This document shows, piece after piece, positions 31,185 through 55,630 of a stretch of 56,723 nt of DNA. The stretch spans positions 1 through 56,723 of the forward strand of contig JAKSLO010000003.1 in NCBI GenBank assembly GCA_024401185.1, given 5' to 3'. The position numbers and the translations under genes were made by a program. Positions within the stretch are counted from its first letter, which is position 1; each line of letters opens with the position of its first letter. The DNA comes from Bacteroidaceae bacterium (lineage in GTDB: Bacteria > Bacteroidota > Bacteroidia > Bacteroidales > Bacteroidaceae). A model generated the notes under the pieces. The model saw only the letters and a list, made by a program, of their open reading frames with translations. It was not told where the DNA came from and searched no databases.

Positions 31185-32207
31185 ATGTCCGATTATAAAT
31201 CTATCTCAAGAGTGCTGCTGATAAGTTTGGTGTGTACCATCTTTGCCAGCTATCCCAATCTGCTCTTTCTGAGCAGCGATTGGCAACATGTGAGTGAAGC
31301 ATGCCGAGGTAGTTATATCAACAGCACCTTGATTCGCATTCTTCTATTCTGGGGCTTTACTCTCGGATTGCTGCTGTTCAACCAGCGAGTGCTGTTGTCG
31401 CAGGGACTCAAAGGACGTATCTTGCCAAACATCCTGCTCACGGTGGCTGCTTTCGGAGCCTACAAGGGCATCACATCGCTTATCTGCTCGGGATTCGACT
31501 GTCGCCCCATCATCCTTACGTTCCAGTTCATCGTAATGGGTATGATGGGTGTATTTCTGGGTTATACCGACCACTTGAACCGAGTGCGACAGAAGGCATT
31601 TGCCGACCGTCAGAAGGCAGAGGAGGAGTTGAAGTCGCTGAGAATCGAGAGTTTGCAAAGCCGATGCACGGCGCTGACCAACCAGATTAACCCACACTTC
31701 TTCTTCAACTCGCTGAACGGCATCAGCAGTTTGGTGCGAAAGAAGGATGACAAGCTGACCATCTGCTACATTGACCACCTGAGCGACATCTTCCGCTACA
31801 TCCTGCAGAGCGAGCACAAGGGACTTGTGACGCTTGAGGAGGAACTGGAGTTTGCCCGCTCGTTTGGTGAGGTGATGCAGGTGCGCTATGCCGGCAAACT
31901 GGATGTGTGCTTTGAGGTGCCCAACGAGTACATGCACCTGCAGATTCCCGTACTGGCGTTGCTGCCATTGATTGAGAACGTGACCGTGCACAACATGATT
32001 GACAGCGACCACCACATGAATGTGCTTATCAGCATGAACGAGAACAAGGAACTTGTGGTAAGAAACCCGCTCTTCCCCAAGCACTACAAGCAGGAGACGC
32101 ATGGCACCGGATTGAAGAACCTGGAGAAGCGTTTTGCCTTGCTTATGGATAAGCAGATAAGGGTAGAGAAGACAGCAGACGAGTTTGTGGTGACGATGCC
32201 ATTGTGA
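31185..32207 (+). CDS. LytS-type sensor histidine kinase
   Basis: A 340-residue membrane kinase of the His_kinase (PF06580) type. Four hydrophobic helices fill the first 125 residues, followed by a coiled coil (about 130-160), the phospho-acceptor NQINPHFFFNSLNG and the C-terminal ATPase motif GTGLKNLEKRF. The start is taken at the ATG at 31185; a TTG four codons upstream is possible. It is the first gene of a long block that runs in one direction to 55.6 kb, with its LytTR partner next, so it probably senses the signal that controls that block. The signal is unknown. Confidence 0.92.
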   Translation: MSDYKSISRVLLISLVCTIFASYPNLLFLSSDWQHVSEACRGSYINSTLIRILLFWGFTLGLLLFNQRVLLSQGLKGRILPNILLTVAAFGAYKGITSLICSGFDCRPIILTFQFIVMGMMGVFLGYTDHLNRVRQKAFADRQKAEEELKSLRIESLQSRCTALTNQINPHFFFNSLNGISSLVRKKDDKLTICYIDHLSDIFRYILQSEHKGLVTLEEELEFARSFGEVMQVRYAGKLDVCFEVPNEYMHLQIPVLALLPLIENVTVHNMIDSDHHMNVLISMNENKELVVRNPLFPKHYKQETHGTGLKNLEKRFALLMDKQIRVEKTADEFVVTMPL

Positions 32208-32217
32208 TAAAAAAGTA

Positions 32218-32320
32218 CGCCTCCTAACCCAAGACTTTTTACAAAGGTCAAAATGTAGGGAATAAGAGCAATGCTGAAATAACAAAATTGTTATATAGAA
32301 GTCAAGGTTTGGCTTTATAA
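32218..32320 (+). repeat. Dispersed element, family 1, copy B
   Basis: CCTCCTAACCCAAGAC, then TTTTTAC/GGTCAAAA, then TGTAGGGAATAAGAGCAATG and AACAAAATTGTTATATAGAA. It closely parallels copy A and separates the kinase from the regulator. Confidence 0.65.
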
Positions 32321-32331
32321 AAAAGTAGAGA

Positions 32332-33093
32332 ATGAAAGTATTGATAATAGAGGACGAAACGGCTGCCAGCGAGAACCTCATCGCCATGCTGCAAGAGATA
32401 GATGGCGAGATAGAAGTGCTGAAGGTGCTTGAGAGCGTTCAGCAAAGCGTGAGGTGGCTGAGCAGTAATCCGGCTCCCGACCTGATATTCATGGATATCC
32501 ATCTGAGTGACGGGTCGGCCTTTACTCTATTTCAAGAGATTGACGTCAAGACACCCATCGTGTTTACCACCGCCTACGACCAGTATGCCCTTGATGCCTT
32601 TACCGTGAACAGCGTGGATTATCTGCTGAAGCCAATCAAGACATCGGAACTGGCTCGTGCGCTCAACAAGTTCAAGCAATGGGGTAAGGCAGACGTAATG
32701 GCGTATCTGGAGCGAATGGTAAATATGATACCCGCCAAGAAGCAGGAGCAGGAGTATCAGTCGCTCCTGTTGGTGCCCGTGCGCGACAAGCTGGTGCCAG
32801 TGGAACTGAATGAGGTGGTTTGCATCTACAATACCGGTCGTAAGACGCAGATATACTTGCAGGACGGACAGGTGATGGTGTACAATAAGTCGCTCGACTC
32901 AATTGTTGCTACACTTAACCCCTCCAAGTTCTTCCGTGCCAACAAGCAGTACATCGTGGCGCGAAAATTTATTAAGGAAATAGTAATATGGTTTGATAGC
33001 CGACTGTTGGTGAGCATGCCCATAGAACTACCCGAACCCTTGTTCGTAAGCAAAAACAGGGCATCGGAGTTCAAGATGTGGATGACAATGTAA
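32332..33093 (+). CDS. LytTR family response regulator
   Basis: A 253-residue regulator. The receiver domain (1-120) has the acidic pair EDE at 7-9, phospho-acceptor Asp55 in LIFMDIHLSDGS and Lys in LLKPIKTSEL. The LytTR DNA-binding domain (about 150-253) has LVPVRDKLVPVELNEVVCIY and FFRANKQYIV. It pairs with the upstream LytS-type kinase. The polyferredoxin gene begins 28 bases later, so it may be in the same transcript and autoregulated. Its DNA targets are probably paired direct repeats, not identified here. Confidence 0.94.
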   Translation: MKVLIIEDETAASENLIAMLQEIDGEIEVLKVLESVQQSVRWLSSNPAPDLIFMDIHLSDGSAFTLFQEIDVKTPIVFTTAYDQYALDAFTVNSVDYLLKPIKTSELARALNKFKQWGKADVMAYLERMVNMIPAKKQEQEYQSLLLVPVRDKLVPVELNEVVCIYNTGRKTQIYLQDGQVMVYNKSLDSIVATLNPSKFFRANKQYIVARKFIKEIVIWFDSRLLVSMPIELPEPLFVSKNRASEFKMWMTM

Positions 33094-33121
33094 GACACCA
33101 GCGGTTAATAAAATTTTGTAA

Positions 33122-33817
33122 ATGAATAAAATAACAATATGCGCATGTTCATCGCGCACGTTTATCCGCAAGGAGACGGTAGCTCGACTGGCAGCGTCTG
33201 CCCAAAAGGCAGGTGTGCAGGTTGAACTGGTTGACGACTTGTGCGAGATGTGCGAGGACAAGGCAGAAGCCGTGCACGAGGTGGCCAAGAGCGTAATCTG
33301 TGCCTGCCATGTACGTGCCGTGAAGAGTTTGATGGCTTTTGTCGGCGAGGACAACGTGGAGCACATCGACCTCAGGGGCGATGATGCCATGGTGCGCACC
33401 CAGCTGGACGAGAAGATGGCTAGCGCATGGGATGGCGTGACCGAAGGGGAGATGGCAGAGTGGCTGACAAAGTTGGAGGCCATGCCCCGAAAACTGGGTG
33501 AGGATGCCTGGTATCCTACAATCGACAAAAACGTGTGCTGCGAGTGTGGCAAGTGCCTTGAGTTCTGTCCGTTTGGGGTGTATGAAATGGTGGATGACCG
33601 TATTCGCGTGGTGCATCCCCATCATTGCAAGAATAATTGTCCGGCTTGTGCCCGTACCTGTCCTGCAAGTGCCATCATCTTCCCCAAGTACGACAGAAGT
33701 CCGATAAACGGAGGAGAGGAACAGCAGGAGCAAGCCGTGCAGCTGGACACCAAGACGCTCTATAATGAAACCTTCCGTCAGAAACTGGCTTTGCGAAAGT
33801 TGAAGATAGAGAAATAA
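33122..33817 (+). CDS. Cysteine-rich 4Fe-4S ferredoxin-type protein
   Basis: A 231-residue protein in two parts. The first 110 residues have cysteine sets at CAC (7-9), LCEMC (about 40-44) and ICACH (about 60-64) in an arrangement reminiscent of HdrA-type N-terminal regions. Residues about 139-196 form a dicluster ferredoxin: CCECGKCLEFCP and CKNNCPACARTCP. It has no signal peptide, so it should act in the cytoplasm as an electron donor. It lies 18 bases ahead of the radical SAM gene, so feeding electrons to that enzyme is a sensible idea. The exact family is not known to me. Confidence 0.8.
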   Translation: MNKITICACSSRTFIRKETVARLAASAQKAGVQVELVDDLCEMCEDKAEAVHEVAKSVICACHVRAVKSLMAFVGEDNVEHIDLRGDDAMVRTQLDEKMASAWDGVTEGEMAEWLTKLEAMPRKLGEDAWYPTIDKNVCCECGKCLEFCPFGVYEMVDDRIRVVHPHHCKNNCPACARTCPASAIIFPKYDRSPINGGEEQQEQAVQLDTKTLYNETFRQKLALRKLKIEK

Positions 33818-33835
33818 AAGATATCAGAATAGACA

Positions 33836-35053
33836 ATGGCGCTGAAAGATTATACATCGATCATGAAAGTAGGATGGCGTGTGATGCGTCAGACACCTGC
33901 CAGATTGCTGTGGAAGTTTGCATGGAACTTTGGTTGGCGAAGCCTCAAGAACATGCATGCTTTCAAGAAGAGGCAGAAGCGTGGCGGCGCCTTCTTCCCA
34001 GCCTTCAACATGATATCGGTCACCGAGACGTGCAACCTGGCTTGCCGAGGATGCTGGGTAACAGCGGGAGGCAGAAAGAGTTTGACGCTGGAACAGCTGG
34101 ATGGCATCATCAACGAAAGCAAGCGCCACGGCTCATACTTTTTTGGCATTCTGGGTGGCGAACCCCTGATGTACAAGGGATTGATAGACATCTTCGTTAA
34201 GCATAGCGATTGCTACTTCCAGCTTTTCACCAATGGCACCTTGCTGGATGATAATGTGGCTCAGCAACTGCGCAAGGCAGGCAATGTGACGCCACTCATC
34301 AGCATAGAAGGCCTGGAGGAGGAGAGCGACAGACGACGTCAGCGCGACGAGGTGTACAAACGCACCCTGCGAGGGGTAAAGGCTTGCCGTAAGGCCGGCT
34401 TGATATTTGGCGTGGCAGCCAGCATCTGCCAATCCAACTTCAACGACCTGGTGACACGTGAGCACATACTTCGCGTGGCGAAGGAAGGAGCTGCCTATCT
34501 CTGGTACTACATCTACCGTCCGGTAGGTGCCGATGCCAATCCCGAGAATGCACTTACCTGGGAGCAGATACGACAGTTGAGACAGTTCCTGGTGGACGAA
34601 CGACGGAACTCTCCTGTGGTGCTTATCGACGTGTATTGGGACGACAAGGGCAAGGCCATGTGTCCAGGAGCCACGGGAATGAGTCATCACATCTCACCCT
34701 CAGGAGCGCTGGAGTTCTGTCCTGTGATACAGATGGCAACCGACTTCCTGAACAAGGATGCAAGCAACCTTTCGGCCTTATATGAGCACTCAAAATATCT
34801 TGCAGGTATGCGCCAGCAAGTGGCGGCTGCCACACGAGGTTGCATCCTCATGGAAGATCCACAGCTCATGGCCAAGATAATAGCACAATACCCTGTGAGC
34901 GAAACCACCACAAGGGCAACAGCCATGCAGGAGTATACCAGGATGTCGCACGTGCCAGGTCACGACATGGGGGACGATGCCATACCGGAAAAGAGCGGAC
35001 CCTATCGCTGGCTGAAAAAGAATTATTTCTTTGGATTTGGCGCTTATGGATAG
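33836..35053 (+). CDS. Radical SAM/SPASM-type protein
   Basis: A 405-residue radical SAM enzyme. The [4Fe-4S]-SAM motif is CNLACRGC (Cys66, Cys70, Cys73), followed by GGEP (107-110). C-terminal cysteines in CPGATGMSHHISPSGALEFC and later TRGC resemble a SPASM-like auxiliary cluster site. The basic N-terminus rich in Trp and Arg may associate with the membrane. The gene sits between a ferredoxin and an isoprenoid synthase/cyclase set, so a terpenoid or lipid substrate (compare HpnH, which modifies hopanoids) is as likely as a peptide. The substrate is unproven. Confidence 0.88.
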   Translation: MALKDYTSIMKVGWRVMRQTPARLLWKFAWNFGWRSLKNMHAFKKRQKRGGAFFPAFNMISVTETCNLACRGCWVTAGGRKSLTLEQLDGIINESKRHGSYFFGILGGEPLMYKGLIDIFVKHSDCYFQLFTNGTLLDDNVAQQLRKAGNVTPLISIEGLEEESDRRRQRDEVYKRTLRGVKACRKAGLIFGVAASICQSNFNDLVTREHILRVAKEGAAYLWYYIYRPVGADANPENALTWEQIRQLRQFLVDERRNSPVVLIDVYWDDKGKAMCPGATGMSHHISPSGALEFCPVIQMATDFLNKDASNLSALYEHSKYLAGMRQQVAAATRGCILMEDPQLMAKIIAQYPVSETTTRATAMQEYTRMSHVPGHDMGDDAIPEKSGPYRWLKKNYFFGFGAYG

Positions 35054-35279: not shown

Positions 35280-36770
35280 ATGATGAATTGTGAAATGACT
35301 CAAATACCTCGTACGCTTGAAGAGCGTATGCTTCTGCGCAGAGCATTGAAGGACTTTGTGCAGTCGAAGCATTTGTGTCCGCCCATCTCGCTGAAGCACC
35401 TGGAGATGCTTGCTACAGAGTTTGTGTCGCAGCAGGAGAAGGGCTCACAGTTCTTCAACTGGTTGATGGTGGAGATAAACAACCAGTTGTGGCTCCGTAC
35501 CGTGGCAGGCATTCCCTATGACCGCCGTCTGCTGATGCTGCCCAAATGCCTGAGCCGACATGGAGAGTGCCGTGCAGAATTTGATGAGTATGGTCTTTTG
35601 TGTCATCGATGTGGCAAGTGCTTCATCCCTTCCTTGCAGGACAAGGCAGAGGCGTTGGGAAGCCTTAGCATCGTGGCAGAGGGCTTTACACAGGTCATAG
35701 AACTGATAGAAAACCATGTAGTGGATGCCGTGATAGGTGTAAGCTGCCTTGACTCGCTTGAGAAGGCTTTCCCACTACTGGTTCGTCATGCTGTGCCAGG
35801 ATTGGCCATTGTGCTCAATGATTCCGGTTGTCGTGACACCCATGTGGATATGGATTATGTGGAAGAACTTCTTTCTATGATTGATGACGTAAAACCCGTG
35901 CTGCTTGACCACGATGCCTTGCACCAACAGGTAAACCGATGGTTCAGCAAGGCAGAGCTTGAACAACTGATGAAGCCCGTTACCGATGCCACAGCACACG
36001 TTTGCCTGGAGTGGATGAGCGGTGAGGGCAAGCGCTGGCGTCCGTATCTGCTGGCTGCCGTATGGCAGTCGATAACCGGCAAGAGCGAGATGACAGAAGA
36101 CGTGCATCGTGCTGCCGTGGCTGTGGAGTGTTTCCACAAGGCATCACTCATTCATGATGACATTGAGGACCAAGACCTCACACGCTACGGACAACCTACC
36201 GTGAATGCCATCTATGGAGATGCCTTTGCCATCAATGCCGGTGATGCCTTGCTGGGCGAGGGTTATCGCATACTGGCAGACAGTAACAATGCCGAGTTGG
36301 TTCGTCTTATTGCCGATGCCCATCTGCGATTGTGCAAGGGTCAGGGCATGGAACTGCTCTGGTGCCAGCATCGCACGCCCATCACGCTCAATGAGGTGCT
36401 CGACATCTTCCGGCATAAGACGGTTCCCGCCTTTGAGGTGTCACTCATGCTGGGATTGGCTTGCACGGGCAATTATGTTCACCTTCGTCCTTTGTTACGT
36501 TCCTATTCCGAAGCGTTAGGCATTGCCTATCAGCTGAAGGATGATTTGGAGGACTTTGAAGCCGACAATGAGCTGGCACATCGTCCGTCGGCTGCTCTGG
36601 CATTGTACAATGAGCATCCCGACTGGGACAAGGCGAAGGTTCAGGAGGAACTGAAGCGCCTCATAGGTTTGTACCATCAGAGGGCATTGGATTCGCTTGC
36701 CGAGATGGATCAGATAGAACTGAAAAGGTTGCTCTTCCAGGTTATCAACGAATTGAAAATAGAAAGTTAG
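35280..36770 (+). CDS. DUF116-like domain fused to polyprenyl synthase
   Basis: A 496-residue fusion. Residues about 60-200 resemble DUF116, with clustered cysteines (Cys90, Cys97, then LLCHRCGKC at 106-114) and GVSCLDSLEKAFPL. Residues about 215-496 are a trans-isoprenyl diphosphate synthase: GEGKRWRP (248-255), first Asp-rich motif DDIED (293-297), KGQGMEL (353-359) and second motif DDLED (421-425). Small residues (Ala288, Ser289) precede the first motif, which hints at a product longer than C15. It should supply the prenyl chain for the two cyclase-like proteins downstream. The fusion is unusual; the cysteine domain may bind a metal or Fe-S cluster. Confidence 0.88.
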   Translation: MMNCEMTQIPRTLEERMLLRRALKDFVQSKHLCPPISLKHLEMLATEFVSQQEKGSQFFNWLMVEINNQLWLRTVAGIPYDRRLLMLPKCLSRHGECRAEFDEYGLLCHRCGKCFIPSLQDKAEALGSLSIVAEGFTQVIELIENHVVDAVIGVSCLDSLEKAFPLLVRHAVPGLAIVLNDSGCRDTHVDMDYVEELLSMIDDVKPVLLDHDALHQQVNRWFSKAELEQLMKPVTDATAHVCLEWMSGEGKRWRPYLLAAVWQSITGKSEMTEDVHRAAVAVECFHKASLIHDDIEDQDLTRYGQPTVNAIYGDAFAINAGDALLGEGYRILADSNNAELVRLIADAHLRLCKGQGMELLWCQHRTPITLNEVLDIFRHKTVPAFEVSLMLGLACTGNYVHLRPLLRSYSEALGIAYQLKDDLEDFEADNELAHRPSAALALYNEHPDWDKAKVQEELKRLIGLYHQRALDSLAEMDQIELKRLLFQVINELKIES

Positions 36771-36774
36771 AAAT

Positions 36775-37467
36775 ATGAAACTGCCTTTGATGCTGAAAGT
36801 GTATCGCACGTTGCGTAAGGGGTGGCAGAAGCTTACCCCCGAGGCACAGCAGGCTTTGCGTGCATTTGTGATGTCGCAGAAGTCGGCTGGAGGATACTTG
36901 AATGCAGGAGGCAAGGAGGATGAATATTATACACAGTTTGGTGGTGTGCTTGAGGCGGTAATATCGCCCTCGCCAACGAAACTGATGCATGGTTTAAGTC
37001 TTGGAGTAAAGGAACATACCCGTAAAAGCGATGTCTATGGAGTATTCTTCCAGTTTCTTACAGACGAGTGGCGACCTTGGCGCAGGTTGAATGGAAAGGC
37101 AGATGAACCCATGTCCATGATGACCAATGCCACATGCTGCAAACTGGCCATGCAATACCAGATGGGAGAAGTTTGCGATTCCCGCCTCGTGGAATGGCTG
37201 GTGCAGAGACAGGATGAAACAGGAGGTTTCTATGCCAGCGAAGTGGCTCCCATACCCGACATGCTCAGTACTGCGGTGGCGCTCTTCACCCTGCAACTGA
37301 TAGGAGAGAAGCCTCACTATGTGGCATCCGACTTCATCGAGGCACATTGGCTGGAGAACGGCTCTTTTGCCCCAACGGTATTTGATGAGTATAGTGATGT
37401 GGAATATGCCTTCTATGGGCTTCTGGCATTAGGGGCAAAAGCCCCCCTAACCCTCGAAGGGGAATAA
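36775..37467 (+). CDS. Short terpene cyclase/prenyltransferase-like alpha-barrel protein
   Basis: A 230-residue protein whose repeats (for example VEWLVQRQDETGGFYASEV, and DMLSTAVALFTLQLIG later) match half of the alpha/alpha barrel of prenyltransferase and squalene cyclase families. No DxDD motif is seen, so it may be a partner or second domain for the larger cyclase rather than an enzyme alone. It begins 4 bases after the synthase stop codon. The last residues (KAPLTLEGE) are encoded inside a family-1 repeat. Confidence 0.75.
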   Translation: MKLPLMLKVYRTLRKGWQKLTPEAQQALRAFVMSQKSAGGYLNAGGKEDEYYTQFGGVLEAVISPSPTKLMHGLSLGVKEHTRKSDVYGVFFQFLTDEWRPWRRLNGKADEPMSMMTNATCCKLAMQYQMGEVCDSRLVEWLVQRQDETGGFYASEVAPIPDMLSTAVALFTLQLIGEKPHYVASDFIEAHWLENGSFAPTVFDEYSDVEYAFYGLLALGAKAPLTLEGE

Positions 37468-37592
37468 GAAAAATGTTTAAGTAACAAACTTGTTATATAG
37501 AAACATAACAGATTGAATGAAAAGTAGCCCTTTAACCCCTTAAGGGGGAATAAGAGAAATGTAGAAATAACAAATTGTTATATAGAGGATTT
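37440..37592 (+). repeat. Two adjacent family-1 elements, copies C and D
   Basis: Copy C: GCCCCCCTAACCCTCGAAGG, then GGAATAAGAAAAATG and ACTTGTTATATAGAAA. Copy D: GCCCTTTAACCCCTTAAGGG, then GGAATAAGAGAAATGTAG and AATTGTTATATAGAGG. They are near-duplicates and fill the gap before the large cyclase. Each has a small CCC.../...GGG hairpin. Confidence 0.75.
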
Positions 37593-39356
37593 ATGAACAA
37601 GATATTGAACGAACTGCATGAAGATGCCATGAAGCGACTTATGGACAGTCGCTGTGGCGATGGCATGTGGAGAGGGTGGCTGTCAAGCAGCGCCATTTCC
37701 ACATCTGTCAGCGTATTCGCCTTGCAGCGTATCGATGCTCATAAATACAAGAAGCAGATTGATGACGGCGTGCGCTGGTTGCACCAAACCATGAAGCCAG
37801 ACGGCTCGTGGGGCGACAGCATAGAAAGCCCGTCAAACATGACTGCCACCCTGCTTACCTATGTGTCGCTTTATGCCGTAGGACAGGCACCTAAAGATGC
37901 ACGTGACTTTCTGAACCGGGAGTTAGGAGGCGATACGTCAGAGGCACTCGTGAAGGGGGTACTGAACTATTACGGCAAGGATCTCACGTTCTCCGTACCC
38001 ATCCTGATGATGTGTGCTTTGGCAGGTGTGATTGACAGTTGGAAGAAGATACCCACCTTTCCGTTCGAGTTGGCCACCATGCCACAAAGCATGTTCCGCC
38101 ACCTCAACCTGCCAGTTGTAAGCTATGCCATACCGGCACTCATAGCCATCGGCATCTGTCAGTTAAAGAAGAAAGGAGGATTTTTCTCTCCTCTGCGTCG
38201 TCGGTTCATCCCCAAGGCACTTCGAGTGCTGCAGAAGATGCAACCGAAGGACGGCGGTTTCCTGGAGGCTGCTCCTCTTACCGCATTTGTCAGCATGTGC
38301 ATGGCAGAGGGTGGCTATCGTGAACATGCCGTAACACAGCGATGTGCAGAATTCCTTGTCGCAACGGTTCGTGAGGACGGTTCGTGGCCCATCGACACCA
38401 ATCTGTCGTGTTGGGTAACCAGCCTTTCAACGAAGGTTCTACCTGCCGACGAAGCCTTGACGGACATCATCAAACGTAATGCCACCCAAGAGGTTCACCC
38501 CTTTACGGGAGCCATGCCTGGAGGATGGGGATGGAGTGACCTCAGTGGTTCTGTTCCCGATGGCGATGATACCAGTGGTGCATTGGTGGCCTTGCACAAA
38601 TCTGCCGCTGGCGTATGTAGCCAGGAGGTGGAGAATGGTTTGAAATGGCTGATGGGATTGCAAAACCATGACGGAGGTATGCCGACGTTCTGCAAAGGGT
38701 GGGGTAAACTCCCCTTTGACCGTAGTTCGCCAGATATCACGGCACATGCCATCCTCGCTATGGGGTTATGGCTACCCACTTTACATGGTGACCTGAAGTG
38801 TCGTGTGGAGAAGAGTTTGGAGCGCATGATACGATGGATGGAGCGCATGGTGAAACGTGACGAGGAGAACCAGTCAGAAGGATGGATTCCCTTGTGGTTT
38901 GGCGACCAGGATGCCGAGGATGAGAAAGCTCCGGTTTACGGTACGAGCACGGCCATTGACTACCTGATGGAATCACGTCATGAGAAAGCCATGCAGATGG
39001 CATCCAAGCAGATAGAGTTCGTAGCGTCAGCTCAGAATCCCGATGGAGGATGGGGGGGTAACAAAGGAGTACGTTCCAAGGTTACATACACCTGTCGTGC
39101 GCTGTCAGCTTTGGCGCATTTCCCCAAGGAATATGCAAATGTCAGGGAGAGAGGTTGGAAATACCTTTATGAATGCCTAAAGAATGGCACATTGTACAAG
39201 CGAGAACCCATAGGGTTGTATTTCTCACGTCTGTGGTATTCTGAGGATTTGTACAACGTAACCTTCCTGCTGAGGGCAATAGAGGTGGAAAGAAGAAATC
39301 ACACCTGCTCTGCAGCAGAGGATGAACAGCCGGACGTTCGTCCGATAACTCCTTGA
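37593..39356 (+). CDS. Squalene-hopene cyclase-like class II terpene cyclase
   Basis: A 587-residue protein. The class II acid motif is present as PDGDDTSGAL, with the DxDD catalytic set at Asp323-Asp326, preceded by PGGWGWSDL (309-317), the same local order as in squalene-hopene cyclases. QW-type repeats occur at RWLHQTMKPDGSW (61-73), RVLQKMQPKDGGF (211-223), VREDGSW (259-265), MGLQNHDGG (354-362) and SAQNPDGGWGG. Such enzymes protonate and cyclise a linear polyprene at the membrane surface. The substrate may be squalene or the product of the adjacent polyprenyl synthase. The ATG at 37593 is preferred to a TTG upstream in a repeat. The last 20 or so residues are repeat-derived. Confidence 0.85.
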   Translation: MNKILNELHEDAMKRLMDSRCGDGMWRGWLSSSAISTSVSVFALQRIDAHKYKKQIDDGVRWLHQTMKPDGSWGDSIESPSNMTATLLTYVSLYAVGQAPKDARDFLNRELGGDTSEALVKGVLNYYGKDLTFSVPILMMCALAGVIDSWKKIPTFPFELATMPQSMFRHLNLPVVSYAIPALIAIGICQLKKKGGFFSPLRRRFIPKALRVLQKMQPKDGGFLEAAPLTAFVSMCMAEGGYREHAVTQRCAEFLVATVREDGSWPIDTNLSCWVTSLSTKVLPADEALTDIIKRNATQEVHPFTGAMPGGWGWSDLSGSVPDGDDTSGALVALHKSAAGVCSQEVENGLKWLMGLQNHDGGMPTFCKGWGKLPFDRSSPDITAHAILAMGLWLPTLHGDLKCRVEKSLERMIRWMERMVKRDEENQSEGWIPLWFGDQDAEDEKAPVYGTSTAIDYLMESRHEKAMQMASKQIEFVASAQNPDGGWGGNKGVRSKVTYTCRALSALAHFPKEYANVRERGWKYLYECLKNGTLYKREPIGLYFSRLWYSEDLYNVTFLLRAIEVERRNHTCSAAEDEQPDVRPITP

Positions 39357-39366: not shown

Positions 39367-39423
39367 GTGTCCACTTGCTTACTTGAATTATTTAAGAAAC
39401 AACATAATGCGAAGATACAGAAT

Positions 39424-41933: not shown

Positions 41934-42512
41934 ATGAATATGGACAAGGATAAACTGAAAAGCCCGATGGATCGCAGAAACTTTCTGCGTACTTGTGGCT
42001 CATTGTTAGCTGGTGGCGTGGCATTGGCTACCGGTGGCATACTGGCCACAAAGATGAAAGGCGAGGAAGGCGATGTCTTCTGGCAGATCGACCCCTTTGC
42101 CTGTACACAATGTGGACGTTGTGAAACCGATTGCGTATTGCCTGTGTCGGCAGTCAAATGCTTTCATGCCAACAAGGTGTGTGGCTATTGCGACCTTTGC
42201 GGTGGCTATTACCGTCCAAGTGTGAAGGACTTGAATACGGCTGCCGAGAACCAGATGTGTCCCACGGGAGCCATACAGCGTAAGTTTGTGGAAGAACCCT
42301 ATTTTGAGTACACCATTGATGAGAACCTGTGCAACGGATGTGGCAAATGCGTCAAGGGATGTACGTCATTTGGCAACGGCTCGCTGTTTCTGCAAGTACA
42401 GCAGGATCTTTGTCAGCAATGCAACGAGTGCCAGATAGCGCGTGTATGTCCTTCAGATGCCATTAAACGTGTTTCTTACAAAGATGCTTATAAACTGAAA
42501 GATCATGCGTAG
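41934..42512 (+). CDS. Tat-signal periplasmic ferredoxin (NapG-like)
   Basis: A 192-residue protein. MDRRNFLRTCGSLLAGG is a twin-arginine signal. It then has CTQCGRCETDC, CGYCDLC, CPTGAI, CNGCGKCVKGC and CQQCNECQIARVCP, enough for three to four [4Fe-4S] clusters in a NapG-like arrangement. NapG-type ferredoxins pass electrons from a NapH-type quinol-linked membrane protein to a periplasmic partner, and a NapH-like gene overlaps it by 8 bases here. The terminal acceptor is not a nitrate reductase in this window. Confidence 0.87.
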   Translation: MNMDKDKLKSPMDRRNFLRTCGSLLAGGVALATGGILATKMKGEEGDVFWQIDPFACTQCGRCETDCVLPVSAVKCFHANKVCGYCDLCGGYYRPSVKDLNTAAENQMCPTGAIQRKFVEEPYFEYTIDENLCNGCGKCVKGCTSFGNGSLFLQVQQDLCQQCNECQIARVCPSDAIKRVSYKDAYKLKDHA

Positions 42513-48980: not shown

Positions 48981-50171
48981 TTGAAAAAGTCATTCTACAT
49001 ATTAGTCAATGTATGCGCCATCGTAGTGATGACCTTACTAAGTTCTTGTGCTACGGTACAGGAGTTTAGTGATGGTGATAAGAATCAGCACGACTGGCCC
49101 ATATTCCGTGGTTCCCCGTCCTTGTGCGGCTTCACCGATTGCGCTTTGCCTCAGAACCCAAAGTTGTTGTGGAGTCGTTCGTCAAAAAGCCGTACGGTAG
49201 CATCTCCCATTGTTTTCAACTCTGTGGTTTACATGCTCAATCGCAAGGGCGAGTTACGCGGTTATACCATGGATGGCGACTCATGCATATACTACGATTT
49301 GCAGACACCTGTCGAAGCCTCCTTCATAGCCAGCGACACGGTATTGTACATTGGCCGTATCGATGGCTTCGTCACGGCATTGAGCATCAAGCGCCTCATG
49401 GCTCGTCGCCCCAATGAGAAGAAGATTGAACCTCTTTGGCAATACGAGACGCTCGGACAGATCTCGGGTTCGCCCAATCTTGTGGGCGACAATCTGCTTG
49501 TAGGCAGCTACGACAATAGCATGTACACCTTCAAGGCACTTACCGGACGCAAGACGGGGCAGTTTGAAACGGGATATTACATCAACGGCACGGCAGCTGT
49601 GTGGTATCGCTACATGATGTTTGGCGGATGCGATGCATGGGTGCGTGTAGTGGACACCGTAACGGGCGAAATCACCGATTCGCTGGAGCTCGACACATAT
49701 GTGCCTGCCTCTCCTGCCATACTCGACGGCGTGGCTTGTGCCTGCGACTATAACGGCAATGTGTATGAGATGCAGCTCAAGAGTGGCAAGATAACCGAGC
49801 ATCGCAAGCTTCACTCCACGGATGCCAATAAGGACGGGCAGGATGGGGGAGCGGTATCGATGCCGACGCTTACTCACGATGCCGCATATTTTCTCTCGGG
49901 AGACAGATACATCACCTGCATTGACCGCACTACCGGAGAAGTCAGGTGGAAGAAGATGCTACGCGGTCAGACGGGCGAATGCTCTCCCTTAGTGGCACAA
50001 GACAAGGTGTTGGTGTGCACCAAGGATGGCCATGTGTCAATACTCAGCAGCGAGGATGGCACAGAACTGTGGCACTATGAGGCAGGCGAACAAATCATTG
50101 CCTCACCTGCCATCATCAGCGATCGTTTTTTCATATTAACCAGTAGAGGAACATTGTTATGCTTCGGTTAA
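48981..50171 (+). CDS. PQQ-like beta-propeller lipoprotein
   Basis: A 396-residue lipoprotein. The signal ends at LLSSC (Cys23). HDWPIFRGSPSLCG is the shared entry motif. The rest is a beta-propeller of PQQ/BamB-like repeats (GEVRWKKMLRG, GTELWHYEAGEQ). The start is TTG, with an AAAGAA-type purine stretch ahead of it. It should be tethered to the inner or outer membrane on the periplasmic side. The ABC ATPase gene overlaps its end by 13 bases. Confidence 0.82.
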   Translation: MKKSFYILVNVCAIVVMTLLSSCATVQEFSDGDKNQHDWPIFRGSPSLCGFTDCALPQNPKLLWSRSSKSRTVASPIVFNSVVYMLNRKGELRGYTMDGDSCIYYDLQTPVEASFIASDTVLYIGRIDGFVTALSIKRLMARRPNEKKIEPLWQYETLGQISGSPNLVGDNLLVGSYDNSMYTFKALTGRKTGQFETGYYINGTAAVWYRYMMFGGCDAWVRVVDTVTGEITDSLELDTYVPASPAILDGVACACDYNGNVYEMQLKSGKITEHRKLHSTDANKDGQDGGAVSMPTLTHDAAYFLSGDRYITCIDRTTGEVRWKKMLRGQTGECSPLVAQDKVLVCTKDGHVSILSSEDGTELWHYEAGEQIIASPAIISDRFFILTSRGTLLCFG

Positions 50172-50836
50172 ACAATATAAATAAGCAGTTTGAGGATGGA
50201 AAACGCATGTTGACCGTCCTCGACAACCTCTCGCTCGTGGTGCAGAAGGGTGAGTTTGTGGCCATTAAGGGCGAGTCGGGTGCAGGCAAAACCACCTTGC
50301 TGAATATACTCGGCACATTGTTGCCACCAGACAGCGGTAACTATGTGCTCGACGGCAAGGAGGTAAGGGCAGACGAAGTGGCTGAGATACGCAACAAGAA
50401 GATTGGCATGGTGTTTCAGGATCATCGTCTGATGCCTCAATTCACCGTAATGCAAAATGTGCTGCTTCCCTTGCTGGCCGAAAAGAATGCCACCACGTTC
50501 GATGAAGTGCAGCGTGCCGAGCGCCTGCTGGCATTCATGGACATTGCAGAGCTTAAAGGCAGCTCCGTCAACCAGCTTTCGGGCGGTGAGAAGACACGTG
50601 TTGCCATCTGCCGCGCACTCATTAACCAACCTTCGGTGCTTCTGGCTGACGAACCTACCGGACAGTTGGATGCACGCAATGCCCGCATCATTGCCGAACT
50701 GTTTCAGAAGGTAAACCGTGAGATGCAGACAACCATTGTCATGGTGACACACTCCGACGAAATGACAAAGGCAGCACAGAAAACTTACGTGCTTAGAGAT
50801 GGGAAGGTAAAGGTGGAAGAAAAAGAAGCCCCCTAA
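50159..50836 (+). CDS. ABC transporter ATP-binding protein (LolD/MacB type)
   Basis: A 225-residue ATPase: Walker A GESGAGKTT, Q-loop VFQDHRLMPQ, signature LSGGEKTRV and Walker B VLLADEPTGQLD. It belongs to the LolD/FtsE/MacB group that powers FtsX-type permeases. The start overlaps the lipoprotein gene, and the permease is next. The last residues (KEAP) run into a family-1 repeat. Confidence 0.93.
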   Translation: MLRLNNINKQFEDGKRMLTVLDNLSLVVQKGEFVAIKGESGAGKTTLLNILGTLLPPDSGNYVLDGKEVRADEVAEIRNKKIGMVFQDHRLMPQFTVMQNVLLPLLAEKNATTFDEVQRAERLLAFMDIAELKGSSVNQLSGGEKTRVAICRALINQPSVLLADEPTGQLDARNARIIAELFQKVNREMQTTIVMVTHSDEMTKAAQKTYVLRDGKVKVEEKEAP

Positions 50837-50981: not shown

Positions 50982-50994
50982 AAACAAAAATAAC

Positions 50995-53900
50995 TTGACC
51001 ACACAATCATTCATAAGCCAAAGTCGTCGCCATTTCAGGTCATACTACCGGTTGGTGATAATAGCCGTTATCTTGATGATGGCTGTCATTACGGGTAGTT
51101 TGTTGCTGGGCGATTCGGTACGCGGAACATTGGTTCGGCGTGTCGAGGAACGTCTTGGCCGTACGGAGAGCATACTCACCAGTGGCACGGGCTTTATGAG
51201 CGATAGCATCATGCTGCATTCCTTGTTCGACGATGCTCAGGGAGTGCTTTTGATTGATGGCTTTATCTCGTTGAACGACAAGCTGATACCCGTTTACGTT
51301 TGGGGCATCGACAACGATTCGCTTTCAGCCGGACAGACGTGGGTGAATGAACCCTTGTCGGCCAAGCTACTGGGTGCCGACGAGATCGTCTTGCATCTGC
51401 CTTCGCACAACATGGTTCCCTCTGGCACTTTGTTCGTCACGCAAAGCTATTCCACCCAGATGCGACTCACCGTGAGCGGATGCAGAACCGTGGAGCAAGG
51501 AGGCAACCTGTTGCTTAAGAACGAACAAACCCTGCCTTTGAACCTCTTTGTCAGTCGTGCCCAGCTGGGTGAGGTGATGGAGCTGGATGGCAAGATCAAC
51601 CTCATTCTCTCCGCCTCGCGCATCACGCCTGCCGAACTTCGCAGCGCATGGAAGCCATCCTATTCGGGCATTCATGTCAACGATTCCTCGCTTACCTATG
51701 AGGGCGTCTTCATCCCTTCCGAGATTGTTGATACGCTTGCCCCATGTGCACGCTATTTCTCCTATCTGGTCAACGACCTGAGTCGCCTTGCCGACACAGC
51801 TGCTGTTTCGGCCAACGACGAAGCGTCGCGCAAGAGCCTTCCTTACTCCTTTGTCACGGCCGTGGACGAATGGCAGGGCGAAGCGCTCTCCGCTCGCGAC
51901 ATCATCCTTTCTGACTATGCCGCGCAACGCCTGCAAGCCAAGGTGGGCGACTCCATCAGCATGACTTACTATCTGGCCAAGGACCTGAAGAACCTCGAAA
52001 CGGCTTCGTGCACCTTATGCGTCAAGCAGGTAGTGCCCCTGAATAAGTTGAAGGGCGACAGCCTCCTGGTGGCTGACTTCCCCGGTTTGAGCCATGTGGA
52101 GAAGTGTGCCGACTGGGACAGCGACCTGCCCATTGACATGAACCGCATAGAGAAGGTGGACGAGGAATACTGGTACCAGCATCAGCAGACGCCCAAAGCC
52201 GTAGTGGCCTATCAAGCCATCTGCCAGGATTGGAGCAATGCCTTCGGTTCTGCTACTGCCGTGCGTCTGAAATCGGGCAGAGGCGAGGCAGAAGCACGCC
52301 TGTCGGCCGATGCGTTCATCACCATCGTCTCTCCGCGTGCAGAGGGCTTGTTTGCTGCCAACAATGGTACCGACTTTGCCAGTTTGTTCATGGCACTTGG
52401 CTTCTTCATCATTGTCAGCGGCATCATGCTCATGCTCAACCCCATTGTGGAGATGCTTCATGAACGAAGTGCCGAACTGGCGCTCTATCAGCAGTTGGGC
52501 TTTACTCGCAAACGGGTGCAGCGTCAGCTCTTCCGCGAGGTCTTTGGCATCATGGCACTGGTGTCTCCCTTAGGCGTGGCAGCTGGTGTGCTGTATGCTG
52601 GCATTACACTCTGGCTCCTGGGCAACGTGTGGAGTGGAGCCACGCATACCGAGGGGTTTGGGCTCCATGTGCAGATGCCCACGCTTCTCATAAGCTGGCT
52701 CGTGGGCATAGTCATTTGTGCCGTCTCGCTGTGGTATCTGCTTCGCAAGCTGCTGAGGGAAGCAGAAGGCAAGCAGCGCGTAAAACCTGCCTCTTCATCC
52801 TTCGCTTCTACAGCCATCGTGCTCCTTGTCACCCTTGGCTTGTTTGCCTACAATCTGTGTTGGCTGCATAGCATGATAGCATTCATTGTGTGTGGCATAA
52901 CGTGGATAGTGGGCATGGGCATGCTGCTGCGCGTGTGGCTGGTACGCCGCAAGCTGGCAGCCGACACCCTCCATTGCCACCGGGCACAGCTCATCTGGCA
53001 AACCATCTATGCATCGTGCCGTCAGCATTTGCTTTCCTACTGGACACTTTCCCTGGGTGTGTTCACCGTCTTCGCCGTGGGCTTGAACCGTCCTGATTTC
53101 ACGGATAGCCAGCTCATGGCACAATCTACGGGCAACTACCAGCTGTACGTGGATTGCCGGGTACCTGTGCAGTACGACCTTAACCATCCCGATGTGCGCC
53201 GCAAGCTCTTGCTTACTGAGCTGCCTGATAGCACCTGCATCCTTTCATTCCTGCGCCATTCGCAGGACGAAGCCAGCTGCCTCAACCTCAACAGGGTTTC
53301 TACGCCTTCTGTGCTGGGTGTTGACCTTGACGAGATGTCATCGTTTGGCTTGCAGGCCGACACGCTTTCACACTCCATTCCTTGTGTCTATATTGACCAG
53401 GAGTCCCTGATATGGAGTTTGATGAAATCCGTTGGCGACACCTTGTATTACGACACGCATCTGGGCACGCACACCCCGGTGCTGATAGCGGGTTCTTATC
53501 CCACGGGCATTTTCCATGGCAACGCAATCATGGCAGCCGACCAGTTCCGCAAGCTTTGGCCAAAGCAGAGTGGGGTAGAGGTGCTGCTCGTCAAGTCGTC
53601 ACGTCCCGACGATGCTGCCGACCTTCTGGCCATGGCCATGGGGGAATATGGTTTGAACATCCAGACAACGCAGGAGCGCATACAGATGTTCTTCGAGGTT
53701 ACCGACACCTACCTTGTCATCTTCCTCACCCTGGGAGCCCTGGGCATGCTGCTGGGCATCTTCAGCCTTTTTGTCATCGTCCGCAAGAACCTCACGGCCA
53801 GCCACTATGCCATCATGCTCTATCGTTCGCTGGGTTACCGTGAGCAGCTTATTCGCACATTGCTTGTTCGCGAAAACCTGCTCGTACCCTTCTACGCCAT

Positions 53901-54057
53901 TCTCACAGGTGCATTGGGGTCGGTCATTAGCATTAGTGCCAATGTCTCGGGAGCCGGTTTCAGCACCCTTCTGCTTGCCTTGGCATGCCTGGTGGTGCTG
54001 AGCGCCACACTCTACATAGGAATACATTTATTAATTAAGAAGAATATTAAACCATAA
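50995..54057 (+). CDS. Large FtsX-type ABC permease
   Basis: A 1020-residue membrane protein with about ten transmembrane helices: one at 20-38 and then an extracytoplasmic domain of over 400 residues, three near 460-600, several near 620-720, another extracytoplasmic section, and three at the C-terminus (YLVIFLTLGALGMLLGIF and following). This is the two-FtsX-domain layout of large permeases. The start is a TTG directly after the 8-bp array and no ATG is better placed. With the upstream ATPase it would export or extract a lipid or peptide, or act as a mechanotransmitter. The substrate is unknown; the isoprenoid made by this locus is one candidate. Confidence 0.85.
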   Translation: MTTQSFISQSRRHFRSYYRLVIIAVILMMAVITGSLLLGDSVRGTLVRRVEERLGRTESILTSGTGFMSDSIMLHSLFDDAQGVLLIDGFISLNDKLIPVYVWGIDNDSLSAGQTWVNEPLSAKLLGADEIVLHLPSHNMVPSGTLFVTQSYSTQMRLTVSGCRTVEQGGNLLLKNEQTLPLNLFVSRAQLGEVMELDGKINLILSASRITPAELRSAWKPSYSGIHVNDSSLTYEGVFIPSEIVDTLAPCARYFSYLVNDLSRLADTAAVSANDEASRKSLPYSFVTAVDEWQGEALSARDIILSDYAAQRLQAKVGDSISMTYYLAKDLKNLETASCTLCVKQVVPLNKLKGDSLLVADFPGLSHVEKCADWDSDLPIDMNRIEKVDEEYWYQHQQTPKAVVAYQAICQDWSNAFGSATAVRLKSGRGEAEARLSADAFITIVSPRAEGLFAANNGTDFASLFMALGFFIIVSGIMLMLNPIVEMLHERSAELALYQQLGFTRKRVQRQLFREVFGIMALVSPLGVAAGVLYAGITLWLLGNVWSGATHTEGFGLHVQMPTLLISWLVGIVICAVSLWYLLRKLLREAEGKQRVKPASSSFASTAIVLLVTLGLFAYNLCWLHSMIAFIVCGITWIVGMGMLLRVWLVRRKLAADTLHCHRAQLIWQTIYASCRQHLLSYWTLSLGVFTVFAVGLNRPDFTDSQLMAQSTGNYQLYVDCRVPVQYDLNHPDVRRKLLLTELPDSTCILSFLRHSQDEASCLNLNRVSTPSVLGVDLDEMSSFGLQADTLSHSIPCVYIDQESLIWSLMKSVGDTLYYDTHLGTHTPVLIAGSYPTGIFHGNAIMAADQFRKLWPKQSGVEVLLVKSSRPDDAADLLAMAMGEYGLNIQTTQERIQMFFEVTDTYLVIFLTLGALGMLLGIFSLFVIVRKNLTASHYAIMLYRSLGYREQLIRTLLVRENLLVPFYAILTGALGSVISISANVSGAGFSTLLLALACLVVLSATLYIGIHLLIKKNIKP

Positions 54058-54069
54058 AAATACTTGGCT

Positions 54070-54225
54070 ATGAATCGCATACTGTTTCTATCCGTCATTT
54101 CAGCCTTTGCCCTGCAGGCATCGGCTCAGAAGGTCACTTTCCGTGGGGTTAACCATTGCGGCATCTATCCTAATGAGAAGAATCTCTTGAAGGAATGGCC
54201 CGCAGAGGGTAAAAATCTACCCTAA
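54070..54225 (+). pseudogene. Truncated PQQ-like propeller remnant
   Basis: A 51-codon frame begins with a signal peptide (MNRILFLSVISAFALQASA-Q) then FRGVNHCGIYPNEKNLLKEW. This aligns with WRGPNHNGYYPDKGLLAQW at the same place in the complete gene 137 bases downstream. The frame stops shortly after EWPAEGK, where similarity ends, and the rest of the propeller is missing. It is best read as the 5' remnant of a duplicated gene. An expressed small exported peptide is possible but less likely. Confidence 0.75.
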
Positions 54226-54361
54226 AAATAGATGAACGATAAAATTAGGGGTCGCTCGCGCGCTCGCTTAAAATCCAGGTAAAAATCTCTAAGAAAATCT
54301 AGGTAGAAATCATATAATTAGAAAACTAAAAACAAAATAAATTTTTAAATTATTTAAACGT
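54226..54361 (+). other. Spacer with short repeats
   Basis: It holds a direct repeat CGCTCGCG/CGCTCGC (about 54253-54267) and copies of GGTAAAAATCT (54209-54219 at the remnant's end and about 54278) plus a variant GGTAGAAAT (54301 onward). These may mark the junction where the rest of the truncated gene was lost. Confidence 0.35.
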
Positions 54362-55630
54362 ATGGACAAAAAACTATTCACATTACTGTTTGGCAGTATG
54401 TTGGCAGTAAGTGCTTCGGCACAGGTTACCCCTTACGGATGGCGTGGCCCTAATCACAATGGTTATTATCCCGACAAGGGCTTGCTGGCACAATGGCCAG
54501 AGGAAGGCCCTCAGATGGTATTCGAGACGTTAGATGCCGGTAAGGGTTACTCTTCTCCCCTCGTAGTGGGCGACAAGGTCTATCTCACCGGTATGAACGA
54601 GGACCAAACCAAGGAGGTGTTCCAATGCTACAACCTCAAGGGCGAGAAGCAATACACCATCGAGTATGGCAATCCCTGGAAGCAGTCGTACCCCGAGACG
54701 CGCACCACTCCTGCCATTGCCAATGGCAAGGCTTATGTTATCAGCGGTATGGGCGAGATTGTCTGCATCAACATCGCTGATGGCAAGATTGTATGGACGG
54801 TTGACGGTGGCAGCAAGTATGGTCGCAAGACGGGTATGTGGGGCACTTCCGAGTGTCCTCTCGTCTATGACAACAAGGTTATCTACACCCCCTGTGGCGA
54901 CCAGACAACGATGGTTGCCCTCAATTGCGAGACGGGCGAGGAGGTTTGGAAGTCACGTGCCTTGGGCGACATGTCTGGCTATGTATCACCCATCATGATC
55001 GAGTATAAGGGCAAGCGTCAGATCATCGGTTCTACGGCTTTCAACGTCATTGGCGTGAATCCCGAGAATGGCGAGATAGAATGGACCTTCGACGACTGGG
55101 GACCCAAGCATACTGGCAAACCCAGCAACTTCCAGAACATCGCTCCCAACTCTGCCTTGTATGAGGATGGCAAGATCTTCTTCTGCCATGGCTACGACAT
55201 CAACGGCTTCCAGCTTCAGTTGGCCGACGACCTCAAGAGCGTTACCTGCACATGGCGCACCGAGACACTCGACACCCACCACGGTGGCTACGTCCTGGTC
55301 AATGGCAAGATCTATGGTTCCAACTGGGTCAACAACAACGATGGCAACTGGTGCTGCGTTGACTGGAACACCGGTAAGACGGATTACGAAGAGAAGTGGA
55401 GTGGTGGTGCCGGCAAGGGTAGCATCATTGCAGCCGATGGCAAGCTCTATGCCTACGACGAGCGCCGTGGCTTCGTAGGCCTTGTCAATGCCACTTCCGA
55501 CAAGTTCGACGTTGTCAGCAAGTTCCGTGTAGCCAAAGGTAGTGGTCCTTACTGGGCACACATGGCTATCGACAATGGCATCCTCTACCTTCGCCACGGA
55601 GAGTACTTCGCTGCCTATAAGATTAAGTAG
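54362..55630 (+). CDS. Secreted PQQ-like beta-propeller protein
   Basis: A 422-residue protein with a signal peptide (MDKKLFTLLFGSMLAVSASA-Q) and a full beta-propeller. YGWRGPNHNGYYPDKG is the shared entry motif, and repeats include GKIVWTVDGG, GEEVWKSRAL and GEIEWTFDDWG. No membrane anchor or lipobox is present, so it is probably periplasmic. It is the last gene of the 24-kb block and the intact relative of the upstream remnant. BamB-like scaffolding or ligand binding is likely; enzyme activity is open. Confidence 0.85.
   Translation: MDKKLFTLLFGSMLAVSASAQVTPYGWRGPNHNGYYPDKGLLAQWPEEGPQMVFETLDAGKGYSSPLVVGDKVYLTGMNEDQTKEVFQCYNLKGEKQYTIEYGNPWKQSYPETRTTPAIANGKAYVISGMGEIVCINIADGKIVWTVDGGSKYGRKTGMWGTSECPLVYDNKVIYTPCGDQTTMVALNCETGEEVWKSRALGDMSGYVSPIMIEYKGKRQIIGSTAFNVIGVNPENGEIEWTFDDWGPKHTGKPSNFQNIAPNSALYEDGKIFFCHGYDINGFQLQLADDLKSVTCTWRTETLDTHHGGYVLVNGKIYGSNWVNNNDGNWCCVDWNTGKTDYEEKWSGGAGKGSIIAADGKLYAYDERRGFVGLVNATSDKFDVVSKFRVAKGSGPYWAHMAIDNGILYLRHGEYFAAYKIK

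Follow-up and report, generated by a model that had tools for sequence, protein, structure and literature searches.

A putative terpenoid-synthesis module and a putative iron–sulfur electron-transfer module that co-occur in Bacteroidales genomes lie joined in one gene block of a Bacteroidaceae bacterium

We analyzed a stretch of 56,723 nucleotides of a Bacteroidaceae bacterium (contig JAKSLO010000003.1 of assembly GCA_024401185.1; contig C104 in our set, from a genome of 180 contigs that is 83% complete). This stretch, here called the window, carries a densely packed block of genes from position 31173 to 55630, all in a single direction. The block is almost certainly built from two separable modules, because the comparison of genomes splits one from the other: module T (B1-B2-C1-C2-C3), a putative terpenoid-synthesis unit, and module R (D1-D2-E1-E2-D3-E3-E4-D4-F1-F2-D5, often with an additional glycosyltransferase), a putative electron-transfer unit. 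Judged by gene content, R is independent of T, T is rarely found without R, and this direction is clear despite the kinship of the genomes. The explanation that we rate best overall, and to which we give an even chance, is that T and R are two co-operating modules within one block and that the product of T is a client of R.

The genes were named A1-A2 (regulators), B1 (ferredoxin), B2 (radical S-adenosylmethionine, SAM), C1 (DUF116-prenyl synthase), C2 (small toroid), C3 (cyclase), D1-D5 (propellers), E1 (ferredoxin exported by twin-arginine translocation, Tat), E2 (NapH-like), E3 (NuoEF-like), E4 (NuoG-like) and F1-F2 (pair of an ATP-binding cassette, ABC, system). A preliminary description, made from the letters of the window, had listed 17 genes of one direction. 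Their places, strand and overlaps (E1/E2, E2/D3, E3/E4 and D4/F1) agree with our list of open reading frames (ORFs), in which the one-directional run holds 18 intact genes and one propeller remnant instead of 17 genes. Most of the family names given there are backed by Pfam matches above cut-off: His_kinase, Response_reg with LytTR, Radical_SAM, DUF116 and polyprenyl_synt in a single protein, the N- and C-terminal SQHop_cyclase domains, PQQ_2 (D1, D3, D4 and D5), Fer4 (E1), Fer4_5 (E2), 2Fe2S_thioredx with Complex1_51K and NADH_4Fe-4S (E3), Fer2_4 (E4), ABC_tran and FtsX. Matches below cut-off are Fer4 in B1 and Prenyltrans in C2, and D2 has no Pfam match above any cut-off.

The distribution of C1 is patchy, with 15 carriers among 301 genomes of the window's family and 2 among the 22 genomes of its genus that were listed. 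All 14 of 14 related genomes keep the order from B1 onward for as long as their fetched contigs extend, at identities down to 31% (C2) and of 44–50% for several other proteins; the upstream side is visible in 12 of them, and 6 of these have A1-A2. A named genome collection, scanned by C1 alignment, yielded at least 556 candidate relatives. The counts of named loci refer to the best 80 of these, which belong to rumen and gut Prevotella-like assemblies, Parabacteroides including Parabacteroides distasonis An897, Tannerella, Alistipes, Carboxylicivirga, Labilibacter, others and one Rhodopirellula. B1-B2 lie upstream of C1 in all 71 testable loci, and C2-C3 lie downstream in 67 of 69 (misses: L092 and L123). 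Of the 29 loci that extend 11.5 kb or more downstream, 26 continue with D1-D2-E1-E2 in this order. The exceptions are L074 and L086, which have D1-D2 before the stretch ends or the order becomes unreadable, and L124, the Rhodopirellula locus. P. distasonis An897 shows the run from B1 to F2, followed by a glycosyltransferase and then D5. As read from these sequences, the conservation of gene order is far beyond chance.

Co-occurrence was counted in a sample of 344 genomes spread evenly over the order, with C1 (profile matches with E up to 1e-60) taken as the marker of T and E1 (E up to 1e-25) as the marker of R. T was found in 16 genomes, R in 58 and both in 14. R is thereby present in 14 of 16 T genomes versus 44 of 328 others (Fisher p 3e-10) and, per genus, in 12 of 12 T genera versus 29 of 183 others (p 2e-9), values that shared descent makes too small. 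Of the 14 genomes with both, 10 carry T and E1 on separate contigs; these include G436 and G633, which hold fused-type clusters cut by contig ends, and G316, G358 and G625, whose T contigs are too short to judge linkage. We prefer a strict count of genomes in which other genes are seen on the C3 side of T: five of six hold R elsewhere (p 3e-4). The looser count by contig of T apart from R gives 8 of 10 (p 7e-6). T is flanked on its C3 side by genes other than R in G399, G411, G465, G495, G565, G627 and Rhodopirellula, a planctomycete with D1, E2, D3, E3, E4 and E1 on a contig other than that of T. E1 is also present in 10 of 11 further T genomes reached via the named loci (the exception is G648), and neither marker was found in 246 other genomes drawn from the phylum, which include two or more of the window's family. 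The preliminary description had taken the genes for one system. This holds for a conserved unit whose halves co-occur even when apart, and fails for an indivisible one, since R lacks C1 in 44 of 58 genomes and T occurs apart from R. Of the two observations that were to speak jointly against a common system, unrelated places and no co-occurrence, the first is seen in some genomes and the second is not.

The 44 E1-positive genomes without C1 are unlikely to conceal a T unit: this idea was dropped after a C3 profile (E up to 1e-10) found no match in any of them, in a search that had no positive control. The surroundings of E1 were fetched for 14 of the 44, and T genes beside R were seen in none. 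Twelve R-only clusters followed downstream read D5 (one to six copies), D1, D2, E1, E2, D3, E3, E4 and D4, and all 12, including G424, end with a glycosyltransferase and then F1 and/or F2. The E1 gene of G371 is masked by an antisense ORF. In G594 (L174), six tandem D5-type propeller ORFs stand ahead of D1, the outermost of them truncated where the stretch ends. In G608, genes for a squalene/phytoene synthase and an amine-oxidase-type flavoprotein adjoin R (L163:3598-6024, minus strand), with no C3 match in that genome. A replacement of T by the glycosyltransferase was considered for the R-only clusters and dropped, because the same family stands beside R in the T-positive P. distasonis, Carboxylicivirga, Labilibacter, G323 and G297. 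G465, a genome with T, keeps glycosyltransferase-F1-F2 (L218:10029-15485) without the electron-transfer core of R. T and R are together in G555 with a CobW GTPase between them (L177:14054-15277); a CobW GTPase also adjoins T in Rhodopirellula (L124:6279-7397). Upstream of T in G555, the genes at L177:1-7200 resemble by eye an arsenic-resistance operon.

We read R as an NADH- and ferredoxin-linked iron–sulfur chain leading to periplasmic propellers because E3 carries the ligands of a Bfu core. Its best solved matches are the bifurcating subunits NfnB 9N5U (684.7 bits), 9BOV, 8OH5 and HydB. In the accessible part of its description, the Bfu family is defined by a BfuBC core, clusters C1 and B1–B5 and a signature His at cluster B2 (PMC9304861). 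We compared 19 E3 sequences from two phyla, with residues assigned to clusters from alignments and known motifs. The Cys residues at the positions of clusters C1, B3 and B4 are present in 19 of 19, and so are those of cluster B1 except C660 (17 of 19). For cluster B5, C197, C228 and C232 match Cys residues of NfnB and are kept in all 19; the fourth ligand is ambiguous, C198 being kept as well. At cluster B2, C637, the signature His H724, C729 and C734 are present in 19 of 19. The fifth place (675) is C, T or S in 18 and R in one; the window has Ser, and the same part of the family description gives Cys/Thr for this place and does not list Ser (PMC9304861). By these sequence positions, E3 has the BfuBC core and the B2 cluster of a Bfu protein.

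E4 aligns to the N-termini of the solved proteins 9BOV_A, NfnA (9N5U_A) and HydA. The window's E4 has 322 residues and lacks the NADP-binding FAD domain, which places it outside Type 1 Nfn-Bfu; short forms are also found in P. distasonis, G389 and G411. In most unlinked R clusters E4 has 515–562 residues, a length that makes a FAD/NAD(P) domain likely there, and E4 of L168 (L168:16182-17750) carries Pyr_redox_2. Residues 99–220, the middle part of E4, are unmatched in G141, G081, G014 and G274.

For the membrane and export side, 15 listed Cys residues of E2, covering a CxC, two CxxxCP and two ferredoxin motifs, are invariant in 20 sequences. The Fer4_5 membrane domain of E2 is matched in two stretches (cut-off 22 bits), and its score against the NapH/MauN model TIGR02163 is 67 bits versus a cut-off of 213.05. 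In E1, 16 of 17 aligned Cys residues are invariant in 18 sequences and the remaining one is present in 17 of them. No CxxCH heme motif occurs in the 18 block proteins. H180, C205, C235 and H278 of D1 are invariant in 23 aligned homologues from two phyla; a PQQ-type vicinal disulfide in D1 was considered and dropped, the second Cys being mostly lost in unlinked R. A simple and crude hydropathy scan, together with the FtsX domains (PF02687), gives F2 the features of a YbbP-like type VII permease. A link to ferredoxin is plausible because Rnf genes are present in the window and, as read by eye, directly after R in G565. The Rnf operon of the window occupies 12912-18254 (+), ∼13 kb upstream of the block; RnfB, C, D and E were recognized by Pfam, G and A by position. 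Taken together, an iron–sulfur path between NADH/ferredoxin and the periplasm is probable.

Turning to module T, C1 has the two conserved Asp-rich motifs (D293, D294, D297 and D421, D422, D425) that assign it to the trans-isoprenyl diphosphate synthases, and seven Cys residues of its DUF116 domain are conserved as well. Its nearest solved proteins include some labelled as geranylgeranyl, farnesyl-type (geranyltranstransferase) and longer-chain synthases; for DUF116, no solved relative was found by sequence. No match to C1 was found on plasmids. C3 belongs to the class II terpene cyclase superfamily, with a D329xD331D332T motif invariant in 14 of 14 aligned homologues and squalene-hopene cyclase 1GSZ as the nearest solved structure (101.7 bits). 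Its ORF opens with TTG, and the real start may be some codons downstream. B2 shares 45–63% identity with its counterparts in seven other T units including that of the planctomycete, and the Cys pattern of B1 is invariant in eight aligned homologues including Rhodopirellula. An HdrA-like N-terminus of B1, proposed from a sequence pattern, gave no match to the L169 protein taken by eye for HdrA. The kinase A1 is probably a regulator of T; A1-A2 were seen in 25 of the 57 named loci that reach 4.3 kb or more beyond C1 on the upstream side, and A1 adjoins a T unit set apart from R in G411.

A hopanoid pathway was rejected as first choice for T, because squalene synthase is missing from most T genomes and the scores are below cut-off: C3 reaches 64.7 bits against the squalene-hopene cyclase model TIGR01507 (cut-off 431.1), and B2 44.6 bits against the HpnH model TIGR03470 (cut-off 225.05). 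We searched 32 of the 41 T genomes with handles for squalene/phytoene synthase (SQS_PSY), which is over cut-off in 12 and in none of the other 20. There was no match in the window's own genome, at its 83% completeness, in nine T genomes at least 96% complete (G141, G081, G014, G238, G274, G503, G316, G411 and G399) or in Parabacteroides G641 and G642, and a weak match in G633 overlaps C1 itself. Because most of the T genomes searched have no SQS_PSY match over cut-off, squalene from such a synthase does not seem to be the general substrate of C3, and a squalene-derived hopanoid is unlikely in most of these genomes. The simplest alternative is that the prenyl diphosphate made by C1 serves as the substrate of C3.

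The fused T-R form is a derived clade that includes P. distasonis An897: its members group together both for D1 (11 rows, support 100/100) and for C3 (12 rows, 100/99). Within this clade, Labilibacter pairs with a Parabacteroides from a different family for D1 (95/90), and for C3 the grouping also takes in Carboxylicivirga (85/82), which suggests that the fused cluster was transferred as a unit. The Tat signal and the CxxCxxxCP tail of D2 are both present in most of the fused clade; L087 (C. linearis) has both, and they are jointly absent from L094, L097, L098, L107 and all 12 of the unlinked R clusters inspected.

Based on these observations, we propose the following mechanism. E3-E4 would form a cytoplasmic flavin and iron–sulfur core of the Bfu type, linked to NADH and ferredoxin, from which electrons may cross the membrane via the iron–sulfur clusters of E2, reaching first the exported ferredoxin E1 and then the propellers D1 and D2. 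The FtsX-type pair F1-F2 would handle a hydrophobic substance on the outer side of the inner membrane. T would build a ring-closed terpenoid, most simply from prenyl diphosphate rather than squalene, which the radical SAM enzyme would modify. We read this product as a client of R because R occurs without T and T only rarely without R, a reading that we hold with slightly less than even confidence: it would be synthesized inside the cell and handled by F1-F2, and on the periplasmic side it would be reduced or put to use. In the window's lineage, the modules would have merged into one operon, possibly a single transcript, with a short E4 and a D2 bearing a Tat signal and a Cys tail. A bolder version is a tentative one. 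R would be a new type of Bfu system with a third partner outside the cytoplasm, in which NADH and reduced ferredoxin feed an all-iron–sulfur membrane path to the periplasmic propellers, and in the fused lineage the electrons would reduce, or be carried by, a hitherto unknown cyclized non-squalene terpenoid exported by its own ABC pair. An earlier suggestion that a hopanoid-like lipid is made, redox-modified and exported fits the data better than a carrier role of the lipid does: T is rarely without R, and R has an ABC pair, while the hopanoid-like nature is doubtful with 20 of 32 genomes lacking SQS_PSY.

Several observations weigh against this explanation. R without T in 44 genomes means that R has another purpose, no part of R resembles a known terminal reductase, and the reversibility of Bfu chemistry leaves the direction of the electrons unfixed. 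R itself varies: G337 has no D5-D1 at that place, G444 has no D3-E3-E4 after E2, and the E1-E2-D3-E3 cluster of G495 (L224) has no E4 after E3. T occurs without E1 in G465 (97% complete), G463 (82%) and G648. The only solved match of C3 labelled as a prenyl-diphosphate cyclase, 5BP8, scores 28.6 bits, below the squalene-hopene cyclase at 101.7, and 12 of the 32 T genomes searched do carry SQS_PSY. The counts also have their limits, as most genomes surveyed are metagenome assemblies, kinship inflates the Fisher significance, three of the 58 R matches are weak (123–137 bits) and the T contigs of G316, G358, G625 and G463 are too short to judge linkage.

Among the alternatives, we consider it unlikely, and yet the best of them, that R supplies reductant for periplasmic maturation, with NapGH- or MauMN-like E1/E2 keeping the propellers or an envelope component reduced and with T providing a lipid anchor or scaffold instead of a redox substrate. 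The NapH/MauN subfamily model is indeed the highest-scoring one for E2, the propellers are the most numerous parts of the block (with the six D5-type ORFs of G594 as an extreme), and the four conserved His and Cys residues of D1 would fit such a role. Against this stand the lack of any recognized cofactor-bearing partner enzyme in the block, the tentative nature of the Mau analogy, and an association of T with R that would stay unexplained.

We regard as rather improbable that the T product is a dedicated quinone-like lipid carrier which shuttles the electrons of R between NADH and the periplasm. This idea, close to the membrane electron carrier of the preliminary description, draws on the rarity of T without R, on the fused clusters retaining both modules, and on menB, the marker of classical menaquinone synthesis, which is not over cut-off in 20 of the 32 T genomes examined. 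It is weakened by the 344-genome sample, in which the share of menB carriers is similar among T genomes (6 of 16) and all others (108 of 328; p 0.79), with menB present in 16 of 58 R genomes. T is not commoner there where menB is missing, and a T product as quinone substitute was rejected for want of this link. Pfam detects no UbiA-type prenyltransferase among the T proteins. The 44 of 58 R genomes without C1, none with a C3 match, count against a carrier as the general mechanism of R and not against an add-on.

A similarly low probability is assigned to functional independence of T and R, which would be neighbors only through the spread of a fused operon as a unit. The patchy spread in the window's family, a fused clade that crosses families and the 44 genomes with R and without T speak for it. 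Such independence is hard to reconcile with the co-occurrence of T and R where they are not neighbors, in five of six clear cases and in a planctomycete, and with a gene order that survives large divergence. Finally, an ordinary hopanoid pathway that lies beside a respiratory operon by chance is very improbable: C3 is of the squalene-hopene cyclase superfamily and T includes a radical SAM enzyme, a feature shared with hopanoid pathways of the HpnH type, but SQS_PSY is found in just 12 of 32 T genomes and C3 and B2 score far below the respective models.

Coordinates of the features of the block and the basis of each assignment (bit scores are those of Pfam matches)
Feature	Position	Strand	Basis
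A1, LytS-type membrane histidine kinase	31173..32207	+	PF06580 81.4 bits; four hydrophobic segments
A2, LytTR response regulator	32332..33093	+	PF00072 and PF04397 over cut-off
B1 (module T), N-terminal CxC...DLC...C pattern and two-cluster ferredoxin domain	33122..33817	+	Fer4 below cut-off
B2 (module T), radical SAM protein, CxxxCxxC and three C-terminal Cys	33836..35053	+	PF04055 74.4 bits
C1 (module T), DUF116 fused to trans-isoprenyl diphosphate synthase	35280..36770	+	PF01976 105.2 bits, PF00348 150.1 bits
C2 (module T), small alpha-alpha toroid protein	36775..37467	+	PF00432 below cut-off, E 1e-4
C3 (module T), class II (protonation type) terpene cyclase, squalene-hopene cyclase superfamily	37575..39356	+	PF13243/PF13249
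D1 (module R), membrane-anchored beta-propeller, probably periplasmic	39367..40857	+	PF13360; hydrophobic segment 25-43
D2 (module R), Tat-exported propeller, C-terminal CxxCxxxCP tail	40906..41931	+	sequence; twin-arginine RRKFLK by eye
E1 (module R), Tat-exported multi-cluster ferredoxin	41934..42512	+	Fer4; twin-arginine RRNFLR by eye
E2 (module R), NapH/NosR-like membrane iron–sulfur protein	42505..43767	+	PF12801 64.6 bits; CxC, two CxxxCP, two ferredoxin motifs
D3 (module R), propeller, three hydrophobic segments	43764..45530	+	PF13360 121.3 bits
E3 (module R), NuoE and NuoF fusion, BfuBC-type core	45532..47922	+	best solved matches and ligand positions
E4 (module R), BfuA-like, short form without FAD/NAD(P) domain	47919..48887	+	PF13510 over cut-off
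D4 (module R), propeller lipoprotein	48981..50171	+	PF13360; lipobox by eye
F1 (module R), ABC ATPase	50159..50836	+	PF00005 125.1 bits
F2 (module R), FtsX-type permease, ten hydrophobic segments	50995..54057	+	PF02687, two stretches
Remnant of second D5 propeller gene, start only	54070..54219	+	53 residues, 43% identity to D5 start, E 6.5e-8
D5 (module R), secreted propeller	54362..55630	+	PF13360
Probable intrinsic terminator	55709..55740	+	12-pair stem, 7 G-C pairs, then T run

The propeller remnant already noticed in the preliminary description is real, and in G081 a D5 gene occurs twice at the corresponding place. The terminator is probably the end of the transcript: its stem is the longest among 19 terminator-like sites in 37400-56723 (the scan excluded 31173-37399), a number at background (16.4 expected by chance), as is that of promoter-like sites. 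Directly past it, a DDE transposase gene (55783-56715, minus strand) lies at the end of the contig.

If the proposed mechanism is true, many gut and rumen Bacteroidales, including P. distasonis An897, would move electrons across the membrane with no CxxCH heme motif seen and no quinone obviously needed, from an enzyme core tied to both NADH and ferredoxin. The fusion of DUF116 and prenyl synthase would gain a role, and an undescribed bacterial terpenoid is predicted. With a cultured Parabacteroides as carrier, the idea is open to genetic and lipid testing.

The preliminary description knew of no described pathway with this gene set, and our literature searches, with most subscription papers and preprints outside their reach, likewise found no description of a Bfu core with NapH-like and propeller partners, of the five-gene T unit or of their union. 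The Bfu family (HydABC, Nfn-Bfu), as far as covered by the accessible part of its description (PMC9304861), shares with R the BfuBC-type core with the signature His and, in E4, an alignment to the N-termini of NfnA and HydA; the long E4 of L168 has a FAD/NAD(P) domain like Nfn-Bfu. R differs in the fusion of BfuB and BfuC in E3, in the window's E4 without FAD/NAD(P) domain, and in its neighbors, a NapH-like membrane protein and an exported ferredoxin. The main text of that source mentions neither "NapH" nor "propeller" and, in the part available, leaves 17 Bfu clades without obvious function (PMC9304861).

E1 and E2 resemble NapGH, MauMN and NosR in combining an exported multi-cluster ferredoxin with a CxxxCP-type membrane iron–sulfur protein. 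Unlike those systems, they score below cut-off, E2 has an extra CxC and a C-terminal ferredoxin motif, both are linked to NADH/ferredoxin proteins and propellers, and no Nap, Nos or Mau enzyme was recognized in the block. C3 shares the N- and C-terminal SQHop_cyclase domains and the invariant DxDDT with squalene-hopene cyclase and other class II terpene cyclases; it differs from squalene-hopene cyclase by its score below the model cut-off and by an operon with its own prenyl synthase, no squalene synthase and the extra small toroid C2. F2 is, like YbbP with its ten membrane helices, an FtsX-type permease with ten segments, compared without alignment to YbbP; YbbAP has been proposed, in the accessible part of that study, to extract hydrophobic compounds (PMC12646458). 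In contrast to the type VII ABC system YbbAP-TesA, no TesA-like esterase was recognized in the block, which has propellers instead. The fusion of DUF116 and polyprenyl synthetase in C1 joins the same domains as that noted in 2015 for Psta_0175 of Pirellula staleyi, where electron transfer was suggested for DUF116; the part of that source available to us describes neither the five-gene T unit nor R (PMC5898192). The component families are known, and it is their combination for which these searches found no description.

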